Virus record (IMG/VR): IMGVR_UViG_3300036820_000579
Span: 1 to 39,858 of that record
Length of the DNA stretch: 39,858 bases
Reading direction: 5' to 3' (one strand)
Source of the DNA: a virus
The notes under the pieces: generated by a model
The model's input: only the letters and a program-made list of their open reading frames with translations
Told to the model about the DNA's origin: nothing
The model's database searches: none
Made by a program: the position numbers and the translations under genes
Shown here: positions 5,051 to 38,378 of the stretch, piece by piece
Numbering within the stretch: position 1 is the stretch's first letter
Layout: each line of letters starts with the position of its first letter

Positions 5051-5566
5051 TTAGTGAGTTTGATTGAGAAGTTTGATTTGCGCTTCCATTGCATCATCAA
5101 CGTTTCGCTTCCACCCGCTACCTTCGGAGACAAGGGTGACGATCTTCGCGACCACCTTCGATCGACAAGCGTTATCGCGTCCCTCCAGGAGTTCGTTGAG
5201 GAGGTCGTACACGGGAACGCGGGGTTCGTGGCTAAATGAAATTCCCCTTTCATATCCGGGCATCGCCGCTTTGAGTTGCTTCTCGCGATCCCCTTGGATC
5301 AAATATCTGGCGTGTTCGATGCCGAAGATTCGGCTACCCTCCGGCAACGTGAAGCCCAGGTCGTTCAGTGGACGCTTATCGCTTAGAACAATGAGGGCAT
5401 CCCCCCCATTGGGGTCCGGCGTCCCAATGGACCCATCCGGACGCACGCCTCTAGGCGGAAGCTGTCCCGGCTCGACCTCAAGGTCGGCGTGTTCGCCCAG
5501 GAATGCTTGGAGGAGGTTGGCATCGAACTTCTCCAATGCGGCAAACAAAAATATCGGATCAGGCAT
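5051..5566 (-). CDS. hypothetical protein, operon-internal
   Basis: 171 aa, ATG at 5566, overlapping the 3' end of the kinase gene by 8 bp, which argues for coupled translation. The protein is soluble, with no signal peptide or membrane segment. It has an N-terminal helical stretch, a Pro/Gly-rich middle (about 35-55), a strand-like DALIVLSDKR segment, and a charged helical C-terminus. I recognise no domain. The ALIVLSDKRPL segment could be a strand-loop of a small alpha/beta fold such as a partial receiver, but key residues are not visible. Conserved association with the kinase would be the main clue to function. Confidence 0.6.
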   Translation of the reverse strand: MPDPIFLFAALEKFDANLLQAFLGEHADLEVEPGQLPPRGVRPDGSIGTPDPNGGDALIVLSDKRPLNDLGFTLPEGSRIFGIEHARYLIQGDREKQLKAAMPGYERGISFSHEPRVPVYDLLNELLEGRDNACRSKVVAKIVTLVSEGSGWKRNVDDAMEAQIKLLNQTH

Positions 5567-8500
5567 CGGTTTCTCGCACTATCAGAGGGAGCGCGCACCA
5601 AATCACGCGCATGAGGCCGAGCTTGCTCGGCCTATGCACGAGGTATTCGAGCAGCGCCGAGACCGGTAGATACCGCACCTCGCGTTGCACCCTGCCCTGC
5701 GACCTGTCGAAGGTCTGAACACCACGGCCGGTGACGATCACGACCTGGGCCGTTTTGGACCTGGTCCCATGAGTTAGTGCATCGATGGTGCTAAAGATGT
5801 TTTCACCGCCGCCCGAACCCTTTTGCTGCTGGGCGAGGCTCTCCAGGATCGACAAGTGCAACACGAGATAGTCGACCTTCGAGGTGAATGTCTCAAGGTA
5901 TTTGCGACACTGGCCGAATTTTGGATAATCGAGATCAACTTCCGTTTCACGGTCTGGAACATGCACATGCATGAGTTGCCAATATCGCTCGGCCTTAAAG
6001 TCACGGATGTCTTTCTTGGCTTCGGTCTGAACTCTTTCATCCAATACCACAACGCGAGGCAGGGCGGCGGCGATCAATTCCCATCCTTCGCCCGGCTGGA
6101 GGCTCCTGATGATCGTGATGGCCGGACTATCGCTGTAGATCAATTCGACAGAGATCGATCTGATCGTGTCGTTTCCGGCTTCGCTTGCCCAATGCTCAAG
6201 CTGTTTGAGCTTCGTCTCGGTCGGATGGTCCACCCAGACGCACGCGTCGAGCTTCTGTCCGCCGCTAGCCTGGGCACTCAGCCAATCCTGCCAAGCCTCC
6301 TGTTCCGCTGGGGCCAAGCACACAGGCCGCGCACTCGACTGGTTGGCCGCACCATTTGCCATGAGCGCAAGCCCGGCAAGGACCGCGCCGCCACCACCCT
6401 GAATCTGCTGCGCGTAGATTTCGTAGAGTGCTTCAATCTGCTTCTGAGATTCGAGTTCGTCTAGCCCTTGGGGAACTGTATTCAATCGCCGGACGGGCAG
6501 GTCCCCTTTGAATTTTTCCACCCAATTGGTGATCGCCGCCTCGCTTCCGTCGTAGGCGACGAACACGTGGTTGCGAAGATTGGCGAGTGCTCCCGCAATC
6601 TTGCTTTCTTCGGGTTCCGCGCGAAGAATCTCCAGGAGTTTCACCTCCTGGATGTACAACACGTAGGATAGGCAATACTTGCCTTTTCCGCGATCAAAGC
6701 ACTCCGCCCGGATCAGAGGGACTTTGTTCGCGGCATTGTCGCGTTCAGAATACGGCACGTCCTCCAGGTCACTGAGGAAAAACTCGCGTAGATACTGAGC
6801 GCAGATCTGAATCTCGCGAATACCTAAGAACTTCGGACTAGGCCGGCCGTCGTCATTAATAATCCGCTCGTTCTGGATTATCCAGTTGAGACGATCTGGA
6901 ATCGAGAGGCTCTCCAAGAATTTGTCAGGCGTTTTCCCGTCCTCGTTCCCTTCCGCTATTCTCCAATCTTCGAACATCTGCCGCAACTGTTCGCCGTTTT
7001 TGTAGTCCCATTTCTTCTCCCCCGGTTCGCTTTGGCGCCGACCACCGGGCCCTAACTCCGAACCTACGTCGAGGATACGGAATTCGATTAGACCCGGCCA
7101 GTTGACCGAAGGGAAGAGCGCGCCCTGCGAGGACGCGTCGCTTCCGATCCGGGCGTGTACATGGATTTCAACTTGACCGGTCTCGGCTCTACCCACGTTG
7201 TGCCGAGCGCTGTTGCGGATGATGTTTTCAAGGACGATATAAAGCGCATGGACGCCCACCTCGCCGCCGGGGCAGGAAAACAACAGCTTTTCGTTCCCGA
7301 CGAAAGTCACATTGGCCGTCATGGCATTCTTGCCGGAAATGTACGCCAACATAGGCGACATTGCGGCCTGCCGCTTCGCGCCGCGCTGGATTGCTAATCT
7401 GCCAATCTGAACGTCCAGACTAAGTTGATCGAGCTGTGTTTTCAGCACAAGCGGTTGGGTCCAGAATGCCTTGTCGCTAGTGCCGAACTCGGCGAGAAAA
7501 TCCATGCGCTTCTGGAGGTAGATCAGAAAGTCGGTGCGCGGATCGATCGGCTGTACATTCGGAGGGGGCGCTTGCTGTCCTTCTTGGGTAGGAGGCCCGT
7601 CTTTGGAAATCGTGGACGCATAGCGCGCAAGCACATGCGACCCGATATTGTGCGACATGTTGCGGGCCATGATCGCCGAGACCGCGTTGCGCAGGGCAGC
7701 GCGGCGGGCGCGTACTTTGGGAATCAGCCCGCGCATCAACTCCACTTGCTGACGCCGATAAGCCTCCACGAGAAATTGCCGTGTTTTTGGGTCAGGCGGA
7801 ATGCGGCATGCTTTTGGAAACTTGAAACGGATCGAGATGCCGCCGGCTTCCGCCCTCTCTTCATCGCTCAGCCCCGGCAGGACAGCCTGCGACCAGAGAT
7901 CTTGGCAGCTTTTATCATTTTCGGATGTCCACCACATGTAGAATTCATTGCACTCTATTAGCTCATTGGATGGCTGGCGGGACTGTTGATCAGCTCCCGA
8001 TTCCTTCCACTCTTTTTCCTTCCACCCTTTGCGCACACCTTTGTATTCCTTGTCTGGATTATCATGCGGGACACGCTTGAACGAATAGTGCGGATATTTG
8101 TCGTTGTTATAGAAGACCGCTGCTTCTTCCCAGTCCTGCACTTCGATCAGGATACGGAGGAATTGGCGGACAAGATCATAGGGCGGCACGATCGGCCTGG
8201 AGAGAGCCCTGCGTGTCGCGGCCTGTCCAATCTCTTGCGCGAACTCGCTGCAGCGTTCGAGCATTTTTTTGAAGTTGGGTTCCCAGGCCGGATTGCCGAT
8301 TTTTCCCTTCCCCGGATCTGCATTATTCTCGAAGCCCTGCTCTGGGGGCTTGAGGAAAATCAAGAGGACGGCCTTCAATCCCCCCCAACCCTGCGTGCCG
8401 CTCCACACGTCATAGATGGGAACCAGAACTCTGAAGTTATGGCTTTCGATTATCCCTTTGAGGGGCTTCCCTTCGCCAGAATCCCAATCCATGAGAAGAG

Positions 8501-9368
8501 GATATAAAAATGCACTCTGGAGGACATTTGCCTCCTCGATCCGACTGTTGCTGTAGCGGAGGCCGCCCTTATCGGGCTCCTTCATCCTACGTCGGCCATC
8601 GCAATCCTGAAATGGACATTCAGGGAAGCTCGATCCACGCGCATTCTTCCAGGCAGTGAGATCGAGAACCCCGTCGTCTGCGATGCCGAATACCGCATCG
8701 GCGACTATGTCCGGGTGTGTATGGCCGACCTCTTCAAGAATCCTGAAGAATATTCCCTCAAAATTTTGGTCGCTTGGATGAGAATAGCACGAGTAGGCCA
8801 TCAACATTGCCGTCGACAAGCGCTCGAATTCTCCCTTCGATAGCAGGCTCTCCGAACACTCCGGACCCTCACTTTGCCTGCCGTATTTTTCTGCGGCCTT
8901 ATGAATAACCTCGAGATATTCTTTGATGAAAGCTCCCGGTTGGTCGTCGTAGCGACCTTCGAATTTCTGCCATTGTAGATTCTTCAGCTCATCGCCAAGT
9001 TTGAAAAAAGCGCCGAAAAGGGCTTTGAGCACTTTCTGCAGAGCATCTTGAGCATATTTTGCACTGCTGGAGCTTTCGTGGCTTAGCGTTGCTGCCTCAA
9101 GGATCGGATTTGCAGCCGCAACCCAATTAAACGTGCGGTTCGCCTTGTCGAACATGATCGGCACGAAATAGGCAATCTCGTCTCCGTTGCCGTTCTGAAA
9201 TCCAAGATTGTAGTCGCCGCGAAGCCAAAAGCGACGAAATTGATCATTGATCTGAAAGACGGTTTCCTCTCTTTGCTTCCATATACCCTCTCGATACCAT
9301 CGGGCACGAGACTGGCGAGCCTGCTGGCCATAAGTCGCTTTACGATCGGCCTCAGTGGCCATCCTCAT
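5559..9368 (-). CDS. large cytoplasmic histidine-kinase-like signalling protein
   Basis: 1269 aa. ATG at 9368, or ATG at 9362 two codons later; either overlaps the permease gene. Residues 1-~540 are an unrecognised, probably sensory region without membrane segments. A dimerisation/phosphoacceptor-like helix carries ARNMSHNIGSHVLARY (568-583), where H573 or H578 could be the phosphorylated His. A GHKL ATPase domain follows: N-box IVLENIIRNSARHN (711-724), G1-like RILDVGSELG (764-773), and a G2-like region FLGIREIQICAQYL (847-860). The C-terminal ~165 residues look like a degenerate receiver: VVVLDERV, then DYLVLHLSI where the phosphoacceptor Asp position is His, then VVIVTGRG. This is a soluble hybrid-kinase architecture. 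It joins the transporter half of the operon to the response-regulator half by overlapping genes. Kinase activity is family-based inference. Confidence 0.8.
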   Translation of the reverse strand: MRMATEADRKATYGQQARQSRARWYREGIWKQREETVFQINDQFRRFWLRGDYNLGFQNGNGDEIAYFVPIMFDKANRTFNWVAAANPILEAATLSHESSSSAKYAQDALQKVLKALFGAFFKLGDELKNLQWQKFEGRYDDQPGAFIKEYLEVIHKAAEKYGRQSEGPECSESLLSKGEFERLSTAMLMAYSCYSHPSDQNFEGIFFRILEEVGHTHPDIVADAVFGIADDGVLDLTAWKNARGSSFPECPFQDCDGRRRMKEPDKGGLRYSNSRIEEANVLQSAFLYPLLMDWDSGEGKPLKGIIESHNFRVLVPIYDVWSGTQGWGGLKAVLLIFLKPPEQGFENNADPGKGKIGNPAWEPNFKKMLERCSEFAQEIGQAATRRALSRPIVPPYDLVRQFLRILIEVQDWEEAAVFYNNDKYPHYSFKRVPHDNPDKEYKGVRKGWKEKEWKESGADQQSRQPSNELIECNEFYMWWTSENDKSCQDLWSQAVLPGLSDEERAEAGGISIRFKFPKACRIPPDPKTRQFLVEAYRRQQVELMRGLIPKVRARRAALRNAVSAIMARNMSHNIGSHVLARYASTISKDGPPTQEGQQAPPPNVQPIDPRTDFLIYLQKRMDFLAEFGTSDKAFWTQPLVLKTQLDQLSLDVQIGRLAIQRGAKRQAAMSPMLAYISGKNAMTANVTFVGNEKLLFSCPGGEVGVHALYIVLENIIRNSARHNVGRAETGQVEIHVHARIGSDASSQGALFPSVNWPGLIEFRILDVGSELGPGGRRQSEPGEKKWDYKNGEQLRQMFEDWRIAEGNEDGKTPDKFLESLSIPDRLNWIIQNERIINDDGRPSPKFLGIREIQICAQYLREFFLSDLEDVPYSERDNAANKVPLIRAECFDRGKGKYCLSYVLYIQEVKLLEILRAEPEESKIAGALANLRNHVFVAYDGSEAAITNWVEKFKGDLPVRRLNTVPQGLDELESQKQIEALYEIYAQQIQGGGGAVLAGLALMANGAANQSSARPVCLAPAEQEAWQDWLSAQASGGQKLDACVWVDHPTETKLKQLEHWASEAGNDTIRSISVELIYSDSPAITIIRSLQPGEGWELIAAALPRVVVLDERVQTEAKKDIRDFKAERYWQLMHVHVPDRETEVDLDYPKFGQCRKYLETFTSKVDYLVLHLSILESLAQQQKGSGGGENIFSTIDALTHGTRSKTAQVVIVTGRGVQTFDRSQGRVQREVRYLPVSALLEYLVHRPSKLGLMRVIWCALPLIVRETDA

Positions 9369-17472: not shown

Positions 17473-17769
17473 ATGAGCATCGAAAAGGTCATGGCCAACA
17501 TCGCAGCAGGCAAGGATCAGATAGAGGCGAATCTCAAGGCGCTCGCCGAAGTGGCGCCGCTTCCCCTCAAAGCCGCGCGCGAGAGCGAGGACGCCAACGG
17601 ATTGCTGGCGTCGGTCGTAGCCGGCGAATTCGCTGAAGCCGCGGCGCGGCTCAATGCTGTCATTTGCGCGGCACGAACGACCTCGGTTGGCGCACCAGAT
17701 GGCAAGAAGAGTACCGACGAGGTCATCGACGTGAGCGATTACAGGGAACTGCCCAATGAAGGCTCGTAG
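17473..17769 (+). CDS. small helical hypothetical protein
   Basis: 98 aa from ATG 17473, which has GGAGGAG just upstream; the frame is open further 5' but that would overlap the previous gene. The protein is helical and Ala-rich with a hydrophilic acidic tail ending DVSDYRELPNEGS. Its last 14 bp overlap the start of the DUF4407 gene, indicating translational coupling. No known domain. Likely cytoplasmic partner of its neighbours. Confidence 0.7.
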   Translation: MSIEKVMANIAAGKDQIEANLKALAEVAPLPLKAARESEDANGLLASVVAGEFAEAAARLNAVICAARTTSVGAPDGKKSTDEVIDVSDYRELPNEGS

Positions 17770-19144
17770 CGCGCTGACGCGACTCGCCGGTTACCATCCG
17801 GCGGCCCTTGACGGCCACAGCCATGACGACCAGCAGCCGATTGTGCATGTCGGCTGGGTTATTCTGCTCGGCGCGACGGTCGCCGGGACGAACTGGGGGA
17901 TCGGTAGCTATGTCTTCGCCGGGGCCGGCGGTTCCGCCCCCGCCGTCGGCGCCGGCATCCTCTTCGGTCTGATCGGCTTCAGCATCGTAGTGATCATTGA
18001 TCGCGGCGCCGTCTACGCCATGGACACGCATGCCGGATTGCGCGCTGCGCTTTGGCCGTTGGTTGCCTTCCGCATCCTGCTAACGTGTTTCGTAAGCTCG
18101 ATTACGACCCATGCGGTCGCTCCATTGTTCCTCAAGTCAGAACTTCAGCTGAAATCGCTCGACTTGCAGGAAGAGGCGGAACGCAGCCGGAATCACGAAC
18201 TGGAGGCGCGGTACGATATCGCCGGACTGCAAGTGGCCGCGACCAACGCCGAGGCGGAGGTTCGTGATGCCCGGAAAGCCGCAGAGATCGTTCCCGCCGA
18301 AATTCAGGCACTGCTGGCGGCTGCCCGGACCTGCTGGCAGGGCTACGCAGGCCGTCGCGCTCAGTTGCTCAGGGATGGGTTCGGTATCGATGAGGCGCGC
18401 CGCCGACTTGCAGGGATAGCCTCAGGATGCGCCCGGTCGGAGGCGGCTGCGCATCGGCAGTTACAGGAATACCGGGACCGATCCCTTGTCGTCCTTGCCG
18501 CCGCAGAGATCAAGTATCAGGAAGCGCTCAGGGCCGCGAAGGACACTACTGCGATCGTGACCGCCAAGCAGACTTATGCGGCCGCAATCGAGCGAAAAGC
18601 CCTGACGCCGCTCAACTCGACAGTACTCGACAAGTTGATCGCCACGGACGCCGGCGCTCGTTGGAAATTCTGGTCGGCGTTCGGCCTAATCATGGGGCTC
18701 GAATTGCTACCTTTGCTGTCCAAGCTGCTGGCGCCACAGACCGTAGCGGGCATCCGCGTCGCGACGGATCGGGTCATCGCAGTTGCCCATCAGATGCGGC
18801 GGAGAAAGGCAGCGGTTGAGGAGCAGGAAATCGAGGAGGCACTCCGGTCGTCGATGGCATCAGCGATGCGCACCGCCATCGAAGGACCCGACCTTCAGCG
18901 CTTCGCGGCTCGTGTACTCGCCGCCAAGGTCGCGGCGCTCGTGCCGATGGAAGTTTTCAAGGCTCTGATGGACGAGATTGAGGCCCGAGATTATGACCTT
19001 CAGTCGTTCTGCCACCGCCATCCGTCCCACGCCCGTATCCTGACCGACGAATGGCAAAAGACGGTGGACGAGACCATTGAAATGCTGAGGCGCACCCGAC
19101 CCGAATTCACCGGCGCTTGGTGCTCCGCTCAGCGCGCCGCGTAA
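17756..19144 (+). CDS. DUF4407-family membrane protein
   Basis: 462 aa, ATG start inside the preceding gene. Three hydrophobic segments lie at ~31-57, 62-85 and 97-122, with the DUF4407 signature of a conserved Asp-Arg after the second (IVVIIDRGAVYAMD). A long charged helical arm (~130-290, with EEAERSRNHELEAR) follows, then a fourth hydrophobic segment near 300-322 (FGLIMGLELLPLLSKLL) and a helical cytoplasmic C-terminus. This topology places the helical arm between membrane segments, probably periplasmic. The biochemical role of DUF4407 is unknown to me. The gene is coupled to upstream small helical proteins, and a 44-aa membrane peptide follows. Confidence 0.8.
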   Translation: MKARSALTRLAGYHPAALDGHSHDDQQPIVHVGWVILLGATVAGTNWGIGSYVFAGAGGSAPAVGAGILFGLIGFSIVVIIDRGAVYAMDTHAGLRAALWPLVAFRILLTCFVSSITTHAVAPLFLKSELQLKSLDLQEEAERSRNHELEARYDIAGLQVAATNAEAEVRDARKAAEIVPAEIQALLAAARTCWQGYAGRRAQLLRDGFGIDEARRRLAGIASGCARSEAAAHRQLQEYRDRSLVVLAAAEIKYQEALRAAKDTTAIVTAKQTYAAAIERKALTPLNSTVLDKLIATDAGARWKFWSAFGLIMGLELLPLLSKLLAPQTVAGIRVATDRVIAVAHQMRRRKAAVEEQEIEEALRSSMASAMRTAIEGPDLQRFAARVLAAKVAALVPMEVFKALMDEIEARDYDLQSFCHRHPSHARILTDEWQKTVDETIEMLRRTRPEFTGAWCSAQRAA

Positions 19145-19400: not shown

Positions 19401-20261
19401 TTACGAGGTCGGCACGTTGCAGAGGATGTAGTGGATGGCGATGCGCACTGTGCCGCCAGTGAAGCTGCCGCTGGTCGCCGTAATGACAATGTTGGTCGGC
19501 GAATAGAAAGCGGTTGGCCCGATCACCCCGCTGTTGTTCGATCCGGCCGACGTTCCGAGCGAGCCGCCGAACTGGGTGGCGTTCCCTGAGACGCCGACTC
19601 CGAATGACGGGGCGCCCGTGACTGTCGTCACGACCAGCTCCGAAACCGCAAAGACGATCGCGCGATTCGGGATTTGAATGGTCGAGGTTGTCGAGCTGCC
19701 GGATAGCGTAATCAGTTGTTCGAGAACGCCGAACTGAATTTGCGACCCGTTCGGCCCTTGGGCGACCGTATTCAACTGGGGCGGCGAGGTCTGCGCTAGG
19801 ATCGTCCACTGGTTTGATCCGTTGCATTTAAGGACGAGGCCCGCATAGGCGGCGGCAAGCACGGCGCCGGTCGCACCGTCGATGGTATCGGTGCCCGCGC
19901 GTGCCACGGTGATCGATTTCGTCGCTGAGCAGTTCCCGGTCTCGTCCGTAATCGTCAGCTGGCAACCGGCCGGAAACGAACTTGCCGCCGGCAGCGTGAC
20001 CGTGCGCGCGGCCGTCAGCGCCGTGTAGGCGATGCTGCGATCCGTGGTCGCCGCCGAATAGTTCGCATCCGAAACGGTGGTCCGGCCTATCGTTTGCGTT
20101 TCCGAGAGCTTCGCTGCGGGAAAGCCGCCCGCCGTCGCGCCGTCCTGGACAACGACCCGGTTATTCGTCGTGTCAACGGCGATCTCGCCCTGTGCGCCGG
20201 TGAAGGACGCAATTTGCGAGGCCGTGCCGCGCCGATATTGGACTTGGACAGCGGTAGTCAT
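19401..20261 (-). CDS. phage tail fibre protein with DUF2793-like C-terminus
   Basis: 286 aa, ATG with AGGAGA upstream. The N-terminal ~50 residues (VQYRRGTASQIASFTG, GEIAVDTTNNRVVV, QDGATAGGFPAA) match the short repeat that starts many tail fibre and tropism-determinant proteins. A middle beta-rich segment has TLPAASSFPAGCQLTITD. The C-terminal ~110 residues (QIPNRAIVFAVSELVV, RIAIHYILCNVPTS) resemble the DUF2793 domain of alphaproteobacterial phage and GTA tail fibres. It would serve in receptor or glycan recognition at the tail tip. Last gene of the prophage module; appears complete although the baseplate gene upstream is not. Confidence 0.8.
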   Translation of the reverse strand: MTTAVQVQYRRGTASQIASFTGAQGEIAVDTTNNRVVVQDGATAGGFPAAKLSETQTIGRTTVSDANYSAATTDRSIAYTALTAARTVTLPAASSFPAGCQLTITDETGNCSATKSITVARAGTDTIDGATGAVLAAAYAGLVLKCNGSNQWTILAQTSPPQLNTVAQGPNGSQIQFGVLEQLITLSGSSTTSTIQIPNRAIVFAVSELVVTTVTGAPSFGVGVSGNATQFGGSLGTSAGSNNSGVIGPTAFYSPTNIVITATSGSFTGGTVRIAIHYILCNVPTS

Positions 20262-20273
20262 TCGATGGCTCTC

Positions 20274-21233
20274 CTAAGCCGCTCCGAGATCCACGTTTAA
20301 TTCGACCGGTAAGGTGAACGGCACGCCGAAGTCGTCCTGCATGCCGACCGATTGCGTGACCAAGCCGAAATCCATGGAGGCACCCACCTGCATCGCGCGC
20401 GCGACTGGATGATCGACTGCGATGCCGGTCGGCGTGTAGGTGTAATCCCACGTCACCCGGCCGTCGCCGCCGGTCGTCCCCGCCTTCGTCCAGGCCGGGC
20501 CGCGGATGGTCTCGATGCCGCGAAATTCCGATCCGAGGAGAAAGAGATCGACGCCGCCGGCAATCACGCAGAGGTTCGCATAATGCAGGATCATCCGCCG
20601 AAAGGTGTAATCGGTCGGCGATCCCGAATAGGCGACGGTCAGGTTCGTCGTGTCACGCGTGAACTGCGAGGTCGCGGCACTGGAAACGTCCGTGCCGTCA
20701 TAGGTGATGCGCCCGCGCCACGGCTCGCCCGCCGCCGTCATCAGGATGAACGGGTAGAAGACGACGCGCAGCCCGCGCGATTTCAAATCCCGAATGCAGC
20801 GGACGATCGATTGGTCCGACGGCGTGCCGCCATAGATGAACGTGCCGTCGACGGACGGGATCGGGATGAGGCCGGACGAGAATTGCGTCAGGCCCGAGCA
20901 CCGCCACACGTCCAGCCCGCCGGCCGCCTGCTCGAACGTACCGCCAATGTAGGTGGTCGAGGGATAAATCTGGCAAGCAGTGATGTCGGTCGAATTGCCG
21001 AACCAGGCGACAACAAGGGCGACCGTCGTGCAGCCGGGAAATTCGGCCTGAAGGTTATTGAGCGCGATCGTGTAGTCGGTCGTCGTGCCGGTCGCCGCCA
21101 GCGGCCCACCGTTGGCATAGCGGTTGATCGAGGTCAGGATGGATTCGGTTACGCGCTGGCCGAGATAGGGGATGGTGTCGTAGGTGAACTCGCCGGTCGA
21201 CGGCAGCAGGTTGACGCCGTTGACGTAGCCCAC
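20274..21233 (-). pseudogene. remnant of GTA-type baseplate 'megatron' (TIM-barrel region), chimeric
   Basis: 319 aa from GTG 21233; the frame continues upstream to about 21288 without a better start. Residues 1-~245 match the GTA gp15/megatron TIM-barrel-like domain: YVNGVNLLPSTGEFTYDT at the start, DLKSRGLRVVFYPFIL, and the hallmark YANLCVIAGGVDLFLLGSEF then RGIETIRGPAW. The family is normally ~1,200-1,300 aa. Here the part before the TIM domain is missing, and soon after GSEFRGI the sequence jumps to an unrelated beta-rich tail ending LPVELNVDLGAA. Together these point to an internal deletion that joined two pieces plus loss of the 5' part. The open frame survives, but the product cannot be a working baseplate hub. 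Confidence 0.7.
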
Positions 21234-30031: not shown

Positions 30032-31426
30032 TCAGCGGCTCGCCAGCGAGACGAACGGCGAGAGGGTGTTGGAGCCCTTGAACGGCGTGAGTTGAGCGTT
30101 CCAGAGCGGCTCGCCATCAACGCGGTAGGTGATGCGGAACACCATTTCGTCGGTGAGAAAGGCCACATGCATCGAGGACGCTGCCTGGATGCCGCCCTTA
30201 TCGACAATGCCGTATTGCGAATAATCGGCGAGCACGATGTCGCCCTGGGTGCCCAGCGTGTTGCTATACTCCACAGGAACCACTGGGCGACCGAACAAGG
30301 TGCCGTAGGGCTGACCGGAGAGACCGTTCGCCGGCAAATAAACCGGCACGCCGGCGGTACCGATGACCTGGCTCAGTGCATAGAGCTGCGGCTCGTTGTC
30401 CTGATTGATCCACCACACCGCATTCTGACGCGAGCGAGCCCAACAACGCGACCACATCTTGAGGATGTTCTCGTAGACGATGGTCTTGGTCGCCTGGCCG
30501 GTCTCGGTCGCCACGGTGACCATGGCCGGCGCGTTCATGATGCCGAGTGGTTGGCCGGCGCCGGTGCCCTCGAAGACCGCGTCCTCGGTCATGAACATGA
30601 TTTCTTCGGAGAACGCCTTGCCGGCGATTGACGTCAGCAAGGACTGATCGGCGAGAAGTTCATCGGTGACCCACATCAGCGACATCAGCTTCTTCAGGTC
30701 GTACTCGATGAGGCGGAATTTCGGCTTGGTGCCGGTCGGCTGCGTGCCCTCGCCGACCCAGAACGATTGCACACCGCCCCACCGCGACCCAGTGGCGCGG
30801 CTCGTTTCATCGACGCCCGGAATTTTGATCGAATTGGCCGTGGTGGAGAGCGAGAACTTCTCGCACCGGCTCAAAATCTCGCCCATGTCGTAGGAACGCA
30901 TGAACACTGCGGTGGCGAAGTCGGTCTGCACCAGGAAGCCGCCGGCGGAAGGATCGATTTCGCCGGCGCCGGTCGGCGCGCGCACCAAGCGGGAGTCAAC
31001 GTCCGCGCCGTGCGTCATGTGATAGCGCGCGACGGCCACGAGCTGCTCGCCAAAGGAACGAAAGCGCCCGGGACCCTCCCACGAAGTCTCGCCACCCTCG
31101 CGCAAAAGCGCGCGCGCCTTGCGCAGATAGTGCTCGAACGGCGGCACGCGCCGCACCTGACGCCCCGAGATGCTGCTCTCGTAGTAGGGATCGAGCACGA
31201 TTGGCACCGCAGCAGCGCTGGGATTGCCCGCGCCATTTTCCGGATGCGGGCGGGCGCGCGACGCAGCAAGCTGCTGTACTCGCTCGGCTTGCGCGATCTG
31301 TTGATCGAAGCCGGCGACGTCGCGCTCCTTGGCCTCGAACTTTTCCTTGTCGCCGATCAGCGCTTCGAGTGCATCGATCGCCGTGGCACGCGCTTGGCGC
31401 AGTTCGTTCAGCTTGTTGTCCATCAT
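30032..31426 (-). CDS. HK97-type major capsid protein
   Basis: 464 aa (ATG 31426; ATG 31423 is next). N-terminal ~110 residues are a coiled-coil delta domain (RQARATAIDALEALIGDKEK), removed by the prohead protease. The core from ~130 has HK97 capsid features: SAGGFLVQTDFATAVF, the E-loop region TANSIKIPGVDETSRATGS, VTDELLADQSLLTSIAG and the C-terminal FRITYRVDGEPLWNAQLTPF. Forms the icosahedral shell. Gene position directly after the protease fits. Confidence 0.92.
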   Translation of the reverse strand: MMDNKLNELRQARATAIDALEALIGDKEKFEAKERDVAGFDQQIAQAERVQQLAASRARPHPENGAGNPSAAAVPIVLDPYYESSISGRQVRRVPPFEHYLRKARALLREGGETSWEGPGRFRSFGEQLVAVARYHMTHGADVDSRLVRAPTGAGEIDPSAGGFLVQTDFATAVFMRSYDMGEILSRCEKFSLSTTANSIKIPGVDETSRATGSRWGGVQSFWVGEGTQPTGTKPKFRLIEYDLKKLMSLMWVTDELLADQSLLTSIAGKAFSEEIMFMTEDAVFEGTGAGQPLGIMNAPAMVTVATETGQATKTIVYENILKMWSRCWARSRQNAVWWINQDNEPQLYALSQVIGTAGVPVYLPANGLSGQPYGTLFGRPVVPVEYSNTLGTQGDIVLADYSQYGIVDKGGIQAASSMHVAFLTDEMVFRITYRVDGEPLWNAQLTPFKGSNTLSPFVSLASR

Positions 31427-32636: not shown

Positions 32637-33932
32637 TCATTTCACCGTGCCGTCTTCGGGCCGACCGGCGTCATCGGGCGCGGTGCCGCTCGATTGGCTG
32701 CCCATCACCGCCATGTTGGATGGTTGCAAAAGCTTTTCGCCGTCTGGATCGGGATCGCGGCCGTCGTCGACGCGCGCCTCGTTTGGCTTGAGAAAGCCGC
32801 TCATGATACCGACGCGATAGGCGTTGTAGCGGGAGGTGATGTCGGCGCGCACAAGCTCGGTCAGATCAAAGGCGACGTGGATGCCGTCCTTCGCCAGGCC
32901 AAAGGTCTTGCTTAGCTTCACCTTCCAGCGTCGGGTGTACCCGGACACCGTGTAATTGACGTATTCCTGCGCCTGCTGGACGATGTTGTTGTTGGTCGAG
33001 CGCGACAGCTCGCCGATCATGTGCGGCGGGATGCGGAACATCCGCGCGATTTCCTGCACCTGGAACTGCCGCGCGGCGATGAACTCCAATTCCTGCGCCG
33101 ACAACGACAGCGGCGTCCACTTGAGCCCGGCCTCGAAGATCGCTGCCTTGCCGGCGTTCTGCAGCCCGGCATTGAGTTCTTTCCAACGACCCTTCAGCCG
33201 TTCGATGGTTGGACCGTCGAGCTTTTGGTCCGTCGACAACACGCCCGATGGCTTCGAGCCGGCGCCGATCCATTGCGCCGCCTGGCGCTCCTGCGCGAGC
33301 GTCAAACCGATCGCGTCGCGGGCGACTGCGATGCGCGAGGCGCCCATGAGGCCGTTCACCGAAAGTCCGCGGAGGTGGAACATATCCGCGGCCGGGATCA
33401 GGAACGGCATGTCGCGCAGTTCGGCCATCTCGTGCAGGCCGAAGGGCGTGACGCGGTAGAACAACTCTCCGGTCGGCGTCTCCCACAGCGCCACCCGGTC
33501 CGGATTGATCGGAACGAGCTTCACCGGCCTGCCGCGCCAGTCGCGAATGATCACCGCGTAGCCATTGCCGCGGAGCACCAGGCCGACCTGGACCATCTCG
33601 GCGAATTCGAGCCAGTCCTGCCACTCGTTCGGCTCCTCAAGGAGTAGCGCAAGCGGATGGTCGGTGATCTGTTCGCGTGAAGAATCGGAGCGCAGCCGGT
33701 AAAGCGAAACCGGCAGCTTCGCCACGTCCTCGGTGAGCATCATGACGCACGCCATGACGCACACGGCGCCGAGGGCGGTCTGCTGGTTGATCTCGACGCC
33801 GGCGGTCGACGGCACCGACCAGATCTGATCGCCCCAGAGCAGCGCGTCGGCGGTGGTGTCGGTCGAGCGGGTCGCCCGCCAAATGGTCGGCACGGCGCGC
33901 GTGAACGCACCGAGCCGCGAGATCACGCCCAT
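32637..33932 (-). CDS. HK97-family phage portal protein
   Basis: 431 aa, ATG start, 18 bp after the terminase stop. Typical portal segments: GAVCVMACVMMLTEDVAKLP, HPLALLLEEPNEWQDWLEFA, GNGYAVIIRDWRGRPVKLVP, QWIGAGSKPSGVLS and IARMFRIPPHMIGELSRSTN. It forms the twelve-fold channel through which the terminase packs DNA. The C-terminal ~40 residues are acidic and low in complexity, as usual. Confidence 0.92.
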   Translation of the reverse strand: MGVISRLGAFTRAVPTIWRATRSTDTTADALLWGDQIWSVPSTAGVEINQQTALGAVCVMACVMMLTEDVAKLPVSLYRLRSDSSREQITDHPLALLLEEPNEWQDWLEFAEMVQVGLVLRGNGYAVIIRDWRGRPVKLVPINPDRVALWETPTGELFYRVTPFGLHEMAELRDMPFLIPAADMFHLRGLSVNGLMGASRIAVARDAIGLTLAQERQAAQWIGAGSKPSGVLSTDQKLDGPTIERLKGRWKELNAGLQNAGKAAIFEAGLKWTPLSLSAQELEFIAARQFQVQEIARMFRIPPHMIGELSRSTNNNIVQQAQEYVNYTVSGYTRRWKVKLSKTFGLAKDGIHVAFDLTELVRADITSRYNAYRVGIMSGFLKPNEARVDDGRDPDPDGEKLLQPSNMAVMGSQSSGTAPDDAGRPEDGTVK

Positions 33933-33950: not shown

Positions 33951-35663
33951 TCACGCGCTGCCCAGAATGATGATGCCCTCGCCGATGCCACCGGAGTGCG
34001 GGTTCATCGCCATCAGCGCCACGGCGTTGAACAACGCCATCACCGGATCGATCTTGGCGAACCCCGCCGCCTGCTTGGTAATGGTGATGGCGTTGCCGCG
34101 TGGCTCGACCTTGGCGTTGCCGACCGCCCAGGCCATGAGCGGCGTTCCGCCGTGGACCAAGTCGCCGCCGGCAAGCTTCCGCTCGGTCGTCTTGATCGCA
34201 TTGTTCAATTTCCAACCCTGCGGCACCCCGACGATGATCCCGGCTTCCGGACTCGCATCGATGTTGCGCTCGGCGAGTTCGTCGACAATGGCGCCAATAC
34301 CGACCGGGTCGACGCCGACGGCGGCCTTGTTCGGCAGTAGCCCGGAGTCGCGTACCTGTTCGACAATGTCGGCAACTTCGATCACGTCGTCGCCGACGCG
34401 CTTCACGATGGTCAGGTTGCCGTCCGCCTCGAAGTCGCGCAGCCGAGCCGCAATGTCCTTGCGGCGCTCCAGCACCGCCTCGTGCGCCCAGGCGTGACCC
34501 CAATGCAGCCATTTGCGCGATTGCGCGTCGGCGCTTGGTTCGCGGGCACGGCCGAGGACGGCTAGACCAAGCAAGTCGTCGAGGCCGCCGCCGTCGATCC
34601 CGACCGTCACGACCTCGCTGCGGGCCAGCAATTCGTCGAGGGTGAGCGCCGGCTCGGCGTTCTTCTCCCAATGGTGCGCGCCGGCCCAGTCGTCGGACTT
34701 GAGCGCAAGCCCGATCTCGATGTTGAGGTGCTGGCTCGCCCAGCGCCGGACCTCCTTCTCGCCGGCGATCTGCGCCGCCTCGAAGTCCTCGATCAGCCGC
34801 GCAATCGTCACCGAGCGGTCGCGGTTGGGCGTGACCATCGGCCAGTTCGCCGGGTCGCGCCACGCGCCGGACTTGATGATGTCGTCCGGGAATTCGTACA
34901 GCACCGGCAACATCGGTCCGTTGGCACGGCCGTCCCGGATCGCGCGCGCCTTCATCAGCTCGTCGCGGAAAATGCCCGCCGGCGGATCGTCCGACTGCGT
35001 CGTGATGAAGATCAGAAACCCTTCCGGCTGCGAAATCAGCCCGCCGCGCAGCTGCCCGATGATCTTGTCGGCCTTATTGATCTTTCCGATCTGATGCAGC
35101 TCGTCGACCAGCACGCCCGCCGGCTTCGGGCCGGTGGCGACGCTGGCGTCGAAGGTCTTGACTTTGAGCCGCGCTTTCGTGCGCCGGTCGGTGATGGCCT
35201 TCAGATGCTCCTGGATGTGCAACCGCTTCTGCAGGAAGCCATCCGGATCGCACTCGATCATCCCCGCGGCCTGGTTGAACGCGAGCTCCGAAACCTCATG
35301 CGTCGGGCCGGTCAGCAGGAATTCCGCGCGCGGCCGGCGGTTCATCAGCAGCGCCGTCACCATCAGGGCGGCACCGTTGGTGGTCTTGCTGTTCTTCTTC
35401 GGGACTAGGTTGAAGCTCTCGCGGACGTGCCGGACGCCGGTCTCGAGGTCGTAGGAGCCGAAGATCGCCGCGATGATCTCGCGGAACCACTCGGCACCCA
35501 CCTCTCCGAACGACGGCGTACCGGCGACATCGGGAATGCGAAGCTTGTTGTAGATGGCGACGGCCCGGTGCGCCTCCTTCTTGTCCAGCGGCAGGTCGGG
35601 GATCAGCGATCGTCCGTTCCGAATCCGCTCTTCCCAGTCGGGACACGCGAAGGCCCACTTCAA
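33951..35663 (-). CDS. phage terminase large subunit
   Basis: 570 aa, TTG start overlapping the small-subunit stop by 4 bp. ATPase domain: Walker A-like NLVPKKNSKTTNGAAL (~107-122), Walker B PAGVLVDELHQI (~189). Nuclease domain: acidic strands VTVGIDGGGLDDLLGLAV (~378) and AAVGVDPVGIGAIVDEL (~463). It is the packaging motor and headful or site-specific nuclease. The conserved order of motifs and length agree with Terminase_1-like proteins; it appears intact. Confidence 0.92.
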   Translation of the reverse strand: MKWAFACPDWEERIRNGRSLIPDLPLDKKEAHRAVAIYNKLRIPDVAGTPSFGEVGAEWFREIIAAIFGSYDLETGVRHVRESFNLVPKKNSKTTNGAALMVTALLMNRRPRAEFLLTGPTHEVSELAFNQAAGMIECDPDGFLQKRLHIQEHLKAITDRRTKARLKVKTFDASVATGPKPAGVLVDELHQIGKINKADKIIGQLRGGLISQPEGFLIFITTQSDDPPAGIFRDELMKARAIRDGRANGPMLPVLYEFPDDIIKSGAWRDPANWPMVTPNRDRSVTIARLIEDFEAAQIAGEKEVRRWASQHLNIEIGLALKSDDWAGAHHWEKNAEPALTLDELLARSEVVTVGIDGGGLDDLLGLAVLGRAREPSADAQSRKWLHWGHAWAHEAVLERRKDIAARLRDFEADGNLTIVKRVGDDVIEVADIVEQVRDSGLLPNKAAVGVDPVGIGAIVDELAERNIDASPEAGIIVGVPQGWKLNNAIKTTERKLAGGDLVHGGTPLMAWAVGNAKVEPRGNAITITKQAAGFAKIDPVMALFNAVALMAMNPHSGGIGEGIIILGSA

Positions 35664-36103
35664 TTGGCCCGGCTCTCGTCGACCAGTTCAGCCCAATCGG
35701 TACCCCGCGCCGCGTTCGCGGCCGCAAGTTGCGCCGCCTCCTTCTTGCCCAGCGGCTTCGGCCGCAGCGGAGCGTACTCGGAGCGTCCGCCGCGCGTGCG
35801 TTCCCACCAGATGCCGGCAGCGAGCACGCGCTGTTGCTCCGCGCGCATCAGCTTGCCGGCATCGGGATGGCCAGCCGGGTAGTATTGCGCGGGGGCGCCG
35901 ACGGCTTGCAGGAAGATCGACTCGGCCACCTTCGCGTTCGCCTTCACAAAGGCGACATCGAGTTCGAGCCGGAAGTGCTTGCGCAGGGTCTTCGCGTCGA
36001 TACCGACGACGATCGCGATGTCATCCTCGGGAATCCCATATCGGGCCATGATTTCGACCTCCTTGCGCTGCTCGGCGCTCGGAGCGAATGCGGGACGTCC
36101 CAT
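35660..36103 (-). CDS. phage terminase small subunit-like DNA-binding protein
   Basis: 147 aa from ATG 36103, which has AAGG seven bases upstream and opens MGRPAFAPSAEQRK; the frame stays open upstream but contains low-complexity sequence. The N-terminus has a helix-turn-helix, EIMARYGIPEDDIAIVVGID then KTLRKHF, as in small terminase subunits that recognise packaging sites. The C-terminal half has two helices and a basic tail. It directly precedes the large subunit. Confidence 0.8.
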   Translation of the reverse strand: MGRPAFAPSAEQRKEVEIMARYGIPEDDIAIVVGIDAKTLRKHFRLELDVAFVKANAKVAESIFLQAVGAPAQYYPAGHPDAGKLMRAEQQRVLAAGIWWERTRGGRSEYAPLRPKPLGKKEAAQLAAANAARGTDWAELVDESRAN

Positions 36104-36526
36104 CGATTGACCTTTGCGATTGTTTCGGAGCGACCCACCCCCCTTTTTTATAGGGCGGGAAATACTCGGCCCGGCCGGCGAAAAAAATTTCTGCGCGTGA
36201 GGAAGCGCGGGGTTGCTGCCCCCGCCGCCGAAGGATTTAATCCCCGTCCCCTTCAAGCACGCAGGCGCTCCCCGCGCCGCGAGCGCAAGTCACACTGCTT
36301 CTGCTTTGATCCAAAGACGACAGCTGCCTACCGCAAGGCGAACGGTGCGAAGGGCAGTTTGCGTCATCTTGCACCCCGGTAAAATGGAGAGCCCTTCCGA
36401 GCAACCGGATGTGACATTGCGGGAGCTGCTTGGGGGGCTCACCGGACAGTGTGGGAGATTCCCGCGTTGCATCCTGCATTGGCTCGATTAAGGTGACGTT
36501 TGGGCTTGCCGCTAACAGAGGCTGTA
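36104..36526. other. 423-bp spacer upstream of the phage packaging genes
   Basis: Divergent region between the terminase operon and the TIR gene. It holds a G/C-rich purine/pyrimidine tract with A/T runs (CCCCCCTTTTTTA near 36138-36151, AAAAAAATTT near 36180-36190), which may be part of the late phage promoter. A 35-codon frame at 36384-36491 is readable but has only a weak ribosome site. No integrase, repressor or tRNA attachment site is seen. Confidence 0.5.
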
Positions 36527-37705
36527 GTGCCTAATATTCTCATCTCCTATAGACGCGCGGATTCGGACGCGATTGCCGGACGAATTCGCGATCGCGTCGC
36601 CGGTTACTTCGGTGAAGGTTGCGTTTTTATGGACATCGACAACATCCCGTTCGGTCTAGATTTTCGCGAACAAGTCCAGGATGCATTGCTAAAAAACGAC
36701 ATTGTGCTTGCAATTATTGGTCCCAAATGGATGGGCGGAGCGCGCGGCGGCTCGTCACGAATTTTGAACGAATCCGATCCGGTCCGGATCGAAATTGAGA
36801 CAGCGCTTACGCGCGGTATTCCGGTCGTTCCAGTCCTGATCGGCACTGCGATCATGCCTAAGGCTGCCGATCTGCCGGAAGGATTGAAGGATTTGCCTTA
36901 TTTGAACGCGGCGGAAGTCAGTGCCGGCCGCGATTTCAATCAGCATATGGAGCGCCTGCTTCGCTCGATCGAACAGTTGCTCAAGCTCAAACAGACCGGG
37001 TCAACGGCGCCGAAGAGCAGCGAACAGGATGCCGCCACAGTTGTTATTCCCAAAACGCCTGAACAAAAGCTCTCCCGCCTCCAATGTTTGATGGCGCGCA
37101 ACGGATTGTTGTTCGAAGATTGGACGCTCGAACGCGCCTTTATCGATTCATTCCGCCAGCGCTTCTATGTAGTCGGCCAGACCTCAATGACGTTCGGAAT
37201 CGTGGCTTGGGTTGTGTTCGGCGCCACCGATCTCCTAAGCGGCGCCGCCGGGCTGGCATCGATCCAGTTCCGTTTCATGCTGGCCATGCCCCTGATGCTG
37301 CTGTTTTTCGGCTTGAGCTTTACGCAACTTGCACGCCGGCACTGGCAGGCGTTCTTTGCATCATTTGCGGTCGTCGGCATAACCTGCATGTACATTGCTC
37401 TGTTGCTCGTCGGGCCGGAAACCTGGTTTCGCGTCGAGCAGGCGACGATGAGCTTCATGCTGTTCATCGCCCTCGTCGGGATGGCGCCCTTTACGGTCGT
37501 GTACGCCGCTGGCGTCGGTTTGTTCATCATAGCGCTGCACGCCATCTACGTCGCTTCCCATCCGGAACTGTCCGGTGTTCACGCGCTATTTTACACTTTG
37601 TTCGTCGCCGCCGCCTATGTGATCATTTGCACGACCGCCTGGGTGCGCGAACGATCATTGCGATCGAGTTTCGTCGCCCAAGTAGCATCTGACCAACGGC
37701 GATAA
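36527..37705 (+). CDS. TIR-domain membrane protein, cyclase-type membrane module without cyclase
   Basis: 392 aa from GTG 36527 with AGAGG five bases upstream; a TTG nine codons earlier is possible. TIR domain ~2-130: ILISYRRADS, FMDIDNIPFGLDF, VLAIIGPKW, and a candidate catalytic Glu (E89) in DPVRIEIETAL as in NAD-cleaving bacterial TIRs. Linker ~135-185, then ERAFIDSFRQRFYVVGQ and about six membrane helices to ~375. This part resembles the N-terminal membrane domain of Bradyrhizobium-type membrane adenylate/guanylate cyclases, which continue with ERSLR-like linkers into the cyclase; here the chain ends shortly after ERSLRSSF. Possible roles: stress or defence signalling, with membrane-anchored TIR. 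The cyclase-domain comparison is from memory and needs confirmation. Confidence 0.8.
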   Translation: MPNILISYRRADSDAIAGRIRDRVAGYFGEGCVFMDIDNIPFGLDFREQVQDALLKNDIVLAIIGPKWMGGARGGSSRILNESDPVRIEIETALTRGIPVVPVLIGTAIMPKAADLPEGLKDLPYLNAAEVSAGRDFNQHMERLLRSIEQLLKLKQTGSTAPKSSEQDAATVVIPKTPEQKLSRLQCLMARNGLLFEDWTLERAFIDSFRQRFYVVGQTSMTFGIVAWVVFGATDLLSGAAGLASIQFRFMLAMPLMLLFFGLSFTQLARRHWQAFFASFAVVGITCMYIALLLVGPETWFRVEQATMSFMLFIALVGMAPFTVVYAAGVGLFIIALHAIYVASHPELSGVHALFYTLFVAAAYVIICTTAWVRERSLRSSFVAQVASDQRR

Positions 37706-37706
37706 C

Positions 37707-37739
37707 CGATAGCGGCCACCGCCGGCTCTAGTCCTATCG
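37707..37739. terminator. hairpin between convergent genes
   Basis: CGATAG (37707-37712) and CTATCG (37734-37739) pair perfectly around a loop with further G/C complementarity. It covers the 28-bp gap and reaches the stop codon of the minus-strand gene. Short stem and no U-tract keep confidence low. Confidence 0.3.
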
Positions 37740-38258
37740 CGGCGAGGACCTCCTGAAGGTCACGTCCATCAATTGGCCGCCAAGCGTGGTGGCACGCATG
37801 GAAAAAGACCCCGGGCTGATCAGTGTCAAAACGACGCTCACACTGGGCGTCAGACCCGGAAAGCTAACCGTGAAGTCGGCGGTCTTATCGGTTTTGTGGC
37901 CGGTGACCGAACCGCCGAGATCGGACTCCCGCGCACCGCTGCCGCGTGTCGTCGCCTTCTGGCTGAGCGTGCCCGAGAACGCATCCCTAGCCAGGGTTAT
38001 ATTCAATTGAATTACTTTGGTGAGCCCAGCCGCGCCGTTACACAAGATATGGGCGCCCATCCGAACAACGTCGGCATTGATGCTCGCACGACAATGTGTC
38101 TGCTGCGACGATTCGAGTGGCGTGTTCCGATCGGTGCCGTTGCCCTGCCACGTGCCGTTAAAGTCGGTGAGCTTTGTTTCCGCCCGCGCGTAGCCCGAGG
38201 CCAATCCCAAAGCCAATAAGACAAGCACGCTTACAGTACCGTGATTGACATGCATCAT
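37734..38258 (-). CDS. small exported hypothetical protein
   Basis: 174 aa from ATG 38258, nine bases after GAGGAG; GTG 38264 and ATG 38255 are alternatives. Residues ~1-27 are a signal peptide (hydrophobic VSVLVLLALGLASG ending ARA), so the product is periplasmic or secreted. Mature part starts TKLTDFNGTWQGNGTDRNT, a beta-barrel-like opening, and has two Cys (HCRASIN and ILCNGAAG) that may form a disulfide. Similar small proteins with a 'GTWqGnG' start are common in Bradyrhizobium and relatives, function unknown. Confidence 0.75.
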   Translation of the reverse strand: MMHVNHGTVSVLVLLALGLASGYARAETKLTDFNGTWQGNGTDRNTPLESSQQTHCRASINADVVRMGAHILCNGAAGLTKVIQLNITLARDAFSGTLSQKATTRGSGARESDLGGSVTGHKTDKTADFTVSFPGLTPSVSVVLTLISPGSFSMRATTLGGQLMDVTFRRSSPR

Positions 38259-38378
38259 GGTCACGATCTCCTCAACCTACAGACCAGAGCACAATTGATT
38301 TGCCGAGACAATTCAGATGCAATCCATTCGCGTCTGCCGGATTTCGGGCAAGCCGGCAGTGATCGAAGCGGACAGACC

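Follow-up and report, generated by a model that had tools for sequence, protein, structure and literature searches.

A 39.9 kb IMG/VR record (IMGVR_UViG_3300036820_000579; its full 39,858 nucleotides were analyzed and are called the window here) carries an open reading frame of 392 residues on the plus strand in which a TIR domain is followed by a membrane part and then by a stop codon. This arrangement raises the question of whether the frame encodes a complete protein, with a membrane part that serves the TIR domain, or a longer enzyme that has lost its end. A sequence-only reading of the same DNA had left both options standing, a truncated derivative of a TIR-membrane-cyclase protein and a receptor using a cyclase-type sensor.

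The gene and its TIR domain

The gene spans positions 36527 to 37705 of the plus strand, stop codon included, and begins with GTG. AGAGG can be read in the sequence five bases upstream of this codon, and L022, the nearest TIR relative, begins at the equivalent methionine. GC content at the three codon positions (0.59/0.43/0.66) together with homology along both halves of the protein indicates that the frame is coding. The TIR domain comprises residues 1-158 (36527 to 37000); residues 4-144 match Pfam TIR_2, for which the cut-off is 28 bits, with a score of 34.4 bits (E = 3.5e-8). This is the sole Pfam match of the whole protein at E values up to 1; the membrane half belongs to no Pfam family, and neither a Guanylate_cyc nor a GGDEF match was obtained with Pfam anywhere in the protein.

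The catalytic residue of SARM1 is E642. In a phmmer alignment, E89 of the window protein (codon at 36791 to 36793) pairs with this residue (entry numbering 561-700; the title of entry 7cm7 reads 'E642A'). E89 is invariant, as are Y8, R10, W68, D84 and P102, in all 42 TIR proteins compared, the window's and those of 41 other loci. The AlphaFold model of the TIR half, built on 23 sequences, has a pLDDT of 88.5, and among solved structures it comes closest to the TIR domains of SARM1, with Z 18.0 for 135-136 aligned residues that superpose at 1.9-2.1 Å. The TIR_2 match and the invariant glutamate bear out the earlier claim of intact TIR motifs, and sequence comparison suggests that the domain is probably an NAD-cleaving enzyme.

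A membrane module related to second-messenger sensors

A linker of residues 159-198 (37001 to 37120), placed by alignment and by the AlphaFold model, follows the TIR domain and holds the entry motif of the membrane module at its end. The module itself extends from 37121 to 37642, as delimited by the model and by its relatives (L042, L090 and GGDEF proteins described below), with predicted helices at residues 199-238, 243-266, 272-294, 297-318, 324-344 and 350 onward. Past helix 6 there is a 20-residue stub (residues 373-392, 37643 to 37702) recognized by alignment with relatives and by structural alignment with ImcA; all of these features lie on the plus strand. The protein ends in ...WVRERSLRSSFVAQVASDQRR-stop about 20 residues beyond the last helix, confirming the reported stop right after the ERSLRSSF linker, and in the alignment the stop falls within the segment that forms the signalling helix in relatives.

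The six membrane helices called from the letters are reproduced by the AlphaFold model of residues 182-392, which consists of six long helices in agreement with the hydropathy peaks. The model is based on an alignment of 18 sequences, mostly GGDEF proteins, and has a pLDDT of 74 and a pTM of 0.65, with 100 of its 211 residues at 50-70. Foldseek ranks the diguanylate cyclase ImcA at the top (E 0.025, probability 1.00), with no match at E 0.001 or better. VIA-align likewise places ImcA ahead (Z 14.4 over 207 residues at 4.0 Å, for a moderate-confidence model), followed by the human adenylyl cyclases AC9, AC5 and AC8 (Z 8.5-10.7), mixed helical bundles and Rv1625c (Z 6.7); according to the program, a Z below about 13 between helical bundles may not be meaningful. 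ImcA is described as a homodimer with a 6TM domain at L47-E231 and a GGDEF domain starting at R241 (PMC10904736). The window module aligns structurally onto residues 17-230 of ImcA, so that in the model the window protein would stop just ahead of the position of the catalytic domain.

Sequence relatives of the module were found in bacterial genomes. A whole-protein search of 397 genomes from the order of a Rhizobiales MAG, which may not be the clade of the host, gave matches in 23 genomes, two loci (L042 and L043) being covered in the membrane half only. L042 is the closest module relative found (25% identical over 203 alignment columns, 51.6 bits), and its module precedes an HD-GYP domain (HD_5, 111 bits); that of L043 runs into what reads by eye as the start of GGDEF. 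A module profile built from the window protein, L042 and L043 (E up to 0.01) was run against 297 genomes from one family and matched 31 of them, in part falsely (L092 is BacA); it identified L090, a class III cyclase (Guanylate_cyc, 182 bits) whose module scores 25.5 bits against the window module, with 35% over the first 80 residues. Pfam was then run on 31 module proteins, namely the loci of the profile search plus L042 and L113. GGDEF is carried by 26 of the 31, whereas Guanylate_cyc, HD-GYP, a histidine kinase with MASE8 and the false positive BacA account for one each and TIR_2 for none. By subtraction, the one left is the shortened L063, with no output domain among the matches listed. 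This locus (L043/L063, G297 contig C29) is a 6TM-GGDEF protein cut short within GGDEF in a 278-aa frame, and truncated members thus exist within the module family.

To separate kinship from shared hydrophobicity, the window module was permuted inside 10-residue blocks, which keeps its hydropathy profile. Real scores exceeded the maximum shuffle score for L042 (45.0 versus 7.8 bits; 0 of 500 shuffles reaching the real score), L090 (24.1 versus 8.2 bits; 0 of 500) and L066 (16.6 versus 11.3 bits; 0 of 499), so that kinship with these three goes beyond hydrophobicity. Several other GGDEF proteins of the L066/L069 family score near or under zero individually against the window, which means that this family is tied to the window protein via L066, L069 and similar members and not uniformly. 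The MASE8 histidine kinase L113 was rejected as a module relative, 18 of 500 shuffles reaching its score (9 of 475 for the BacA control). L113 shares a 51-residue entry segment with the window protein; it and one further match cover nothing beyond the N-terminal motif.

Further searches yielded little. A class-wide profile search for the module returned one marginal match in 385 genomes, and the 15-genome family of G284 contained nothing beyond G284 itself. Another profile search listed 33 of 189 genomes, with weak and partial matches in all except G284 itself (1.1e-94); among these weak matches, L098 is BacA by Pfam and L106 by eye resembles an ion exchanger. The modules of L090 and L042 retrieved nothing from plasmids, and no Pfam MASE model matched the window protein. 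Similarity to the sensor relatives runs from the entry motif through the exit of helix 6. By sequence, the membrane part is kin of the sensors of second-messenger enzymes (HD-GYP, class III cyclase and GGDEF). The earlier description of a cyclase-type module therefore stands as far as the kinship with the class III cyclase L090 goes, but the module is not cyclase-specific, given that the HD-GYP protein L042 is its best relative and GGDEF proteins make up most of the others.

Complete protein or shortened enzyme

Three partly overlapping sets of 397, 297 and 28 genomes yielded no single match spanning the TIR domain and the module, and the same holds for the viral contigs, phages and plasmids searched. 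Longer homologues with a cyclase domain were sought in the same genome sets and none appeared; a TIR-6TM-cyclase protein was not found in them. Exact-peptide scanning of genome contigs with the whole protein gave 10 pattern matches, none confirmed, while viral contigs and the phage collection held no relatives and six plasmid records matched the TIR part only. With the module alone, viral contigs gave two pattern matches, none confirmed, and plasmids none. Among 41 TIR frames, the window's own excluded, none resembles any of the cyclase, HD-GYP and GGDEF domains used for comparison and none contains this module (best score 8.0 bits). A search of the window for remnants of the three output domains likewise found none. 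L014 had at first looked like a homologue of TIR plus module, but its match over residues 3-281 shrank to 3-173 on rescoring; by eye it is of the FGE-sulfatase type, and no helices are predicted after TIR. The open-licence papers listed by the literature searches name no TIR domain fused to a MASE or 6TM sensor. Within the data searched, TIR plus this module is, as far as sequence comparison goes, a new joining of known parts represented by one sequence. Because the pair occurs in no other genome searched, selection on it as a unit cannot be inferred.

TIR proteins that end in membrane segments are common. A simple hydropathy rule applied to 42 TIR frames, counting the broken L003 but not the window's own, predicts at least two helices after TIR in 11 and at least four in five, the membrane ends ranging from a single helix up to 11. 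Such an ending is thus a usual build among TIR proteins, albeit with other modules, and this favours a complete protein. The sequence-only reading would have been undermined if homologues of such length were the norm and the membrane part unrelated to cyclases; the common membrane-ending proteins speak to the former, but the membrane part is cyclase-type kin. Other architectures were observed in the TIR set. L024 (1-2016, minus strand) has, in one open frame, a BPD_transp_1 ABC-transporter permease and a TIR domain that shares 45% identity with that of the window protein. L014 (3350-5386) and L015 (3977-5494), from two Rhizobiales MAGs, combine TIR with an apparent FGE-sulfatase domain (formylglycine-generating type), which is present in 7 of 42 scanned TIR proteins. 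By eye, C-terminal TIR domains follow a thioredoxin-like part in L023 (814-1953) and a Clp_N-like part in L026 (883-1962); across the set, Pfam gives one match to Thioredoxin and two to Clp_N.

The gene lies at one edge of a prophage. Upstream it is flanked by the divergent terminase small subunit gene (35660 to 36256, minus strand), beyond which are those of the terminase large subunit (33951-35663), portal (32637-33932) and capsid (30032-31426). Downstream, 28 bases past the TIR stop, is a convergent frame (37734 to 38264, minus strand) of 176 aa with a signal-peptide-like start, for which no relatives were found, and then an amine-oxidase-like gene. GC3 of the TIR gene (0.66) is close to that of the amine oxidase gene (0.65), compared with 0.71-0.87 for the measured prophage structural genes, and a codon-usage score groups the TIR gene with the flanking non-phage genes and not with the prophage. 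The reported position beside packaging genes is correct, but opposite strand and flank-like codon usage make the TIR gene a neighbour and not a member of the packaging operon. PADLOC recognized no defence partner among 14 window proteins scanned, and its matches to an ABC ATPase, a radical SAM protein and a sigma-54 activator appear generic. The best match of the ABC ATPase is 48% identical in 385 genomes of one class, and the best plasmid matches, among those listed, of the amine oxidase and a substrate-binding protein are less than 30% identical. Elsewhere in the window, two prophage tail genes (19401-20261 and 20274-21233) encode a Major tropism determinant N-terminal domain and a 41-residue GTA TIM-barrel piece, and a DUF4407 protein (17756-19144, 56.3 bits) lies at the opposite edge of the prophage genes. 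Two long frames without an above-cut-off Pfam match (309-2834, 841 aa; 5559-9368, 1269 aa) lie close to a gene for a receiver/sigma-54 activator, the AAA part of which is similar to RtcR/PspF models.

In the truncation proposed earlier, an ancestral TIR-6TM protein ending in a cyclase, GGDEF or HD-GYP domain would have lost that enzyme from its C-terminus, and the window protein would be what is left of it or a receptor with changed properties. The stop does sit where the output domain of relatives begins, and the next frame is as near as could follow a deletion, but no longer homologue combining TIR with an output domain appeared in the genome sets, the 41 TIR frames and the 31 module proteins show neither half of such an ancestor joined to the other, no relic lies downstream, and reading frame and TIR motifs are intact. 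We therefore favour an intact protein over a broken cyclase; an old truncation is also possible, if unlikely. That the frame is a decaying gene at the prophage border, or a chance product, is hardly credible: 392 open codons, a retained catalytic residue and gene-like codon usage outweigh its single known copy, its solitary place between oppositely oriented genes and a promoter scan that detected no sigma-70-like promoter.

Two further alternatives accept an intact protein and assign its halves other roles. The six helices could passively hold the TIR domain at the membrane while TIR or a partner does the sensing. The varied membrane ends of TIR relatives suggest that tethering itself matters, yet kinship to dedicated sensors from entry motif to helix-6 exit exceeds what an anchor needs, and we regard a purely passive role as rather improbable. 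Alternatively, the TIR domain could, as in Thoeris, produce a messenger of the cyclic ADP-ribose type that acts on a distant partner, instead of depleting NAD. This is suggested by weak similarity in the first half of the TIR domain to ThcB4 (25.7 bits against a cut-off of 220, residues 4-68 only) and to ThsB (profile ThsB1, 20.5 bits, residues 4-69 only). All PADLOC and NCBIfam defence names obtained cover only about the first 65 residues and score far under the cut-off where one exists, no full-profile match to ThsB or ThcB4 was obtained for the window protein, and no ThsA-type gene is present among the 14 scanned window proteins, all of which leaves a signal maker of this kind very unlikely.

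Proposed function and comparison with known systems

We see about an even chance that the window protein is an intact membrane sensor-effector encoded by one gene. Its TIR domain would be located in the cytosol, and the six-helix module, a putative sensor of the MASE/6TM kind, would dimerize in the membrane; such a sensor normally controls a C-terminal second-messenger enzyme and would here control the TIR domain that precedes it. A signal at the membrane or envelope, perhaps phage attack, might change the arrangement of the modules or gather them into clusters. TIR domains would thereby meet and start to cleave NAD, with growth arrest or a nucleotide signal as the outcome. Activation by clustering has precedents: the TIR NADase SpbK is activated by clustering via a phage portal and its N-terminal domain (PMC12847820), and TIR-STING by a filament of cyclic-dinucleotide-bound STING (PMC9402430). 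Several points count against a sensor-effector: the pair occurs in no other genome searched, the output domain of relatives follows the C-terminal helix and does not precede the module, the stub after helix 6 resembles the beginning of a missing output, the module model is of moderate confidence, and no defence neighbours were recognized nearby. More specifically, and tentatively, the protein may be a new kind of one-gene membrane immune receptor in which a second-messenger-type 6TM sensor has traded its usual enzyme for a TIR NADase at the N-terminus; NAD loss or ADP-ribose signalling would then follow directly from a signal at the envelope.

If the protein is active, membrane sensors known from c-di-GMP and cAMP signalling could also control TIR enzymes, joining two large signalling worlds. 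It would then be a simple bacterial counterpart of membrane receptors that carry their TIR domain in the cytosol, and would help account for the varied C-terminal membrane modules of many TIR proteins.

The window protein shares features with four groups of known or related proteins. SARM1, SpbK and TIR-STING have in common with it the TIR fold (Z 18.0 for SARM1), a glutamate at the catalytic place and a second domain, which in the known enzymes clusters the TIR domains and thereby activates them. In the window protein this second domain is a six-helix membrane module of sensor type, and the NADase is putative. The TIR relatives L022 (TIR 48% identical to the window's), L035, L093 and L024 also have TIR first and a multi-helix part last, but their membrane parts lack clear sequence similarity to its module. 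ImcA and other 6TM-GGDEF proteins would resemble the window protein in the six-helix arrangement predicted by the moderate-confidence model, and 6TM-GGDEF and 6TM-HD-GYP proteins are related to it in sequence; unlike ImcA and MASE-type proteins, it has a TIR domain in front, no GGDEF or HD-GYP domain past helix 6 and no Pfam MASE match. Membrane class III cyclases are related through the module sequence of L090, and the transmembrane halves of human adenylyl cyclases (AC9, Z up to 10.7) and, weakly, Rv1625c (Z 6.7) resemble the module model, but the cyclase domain present in these enzymes is absent from the window protein.
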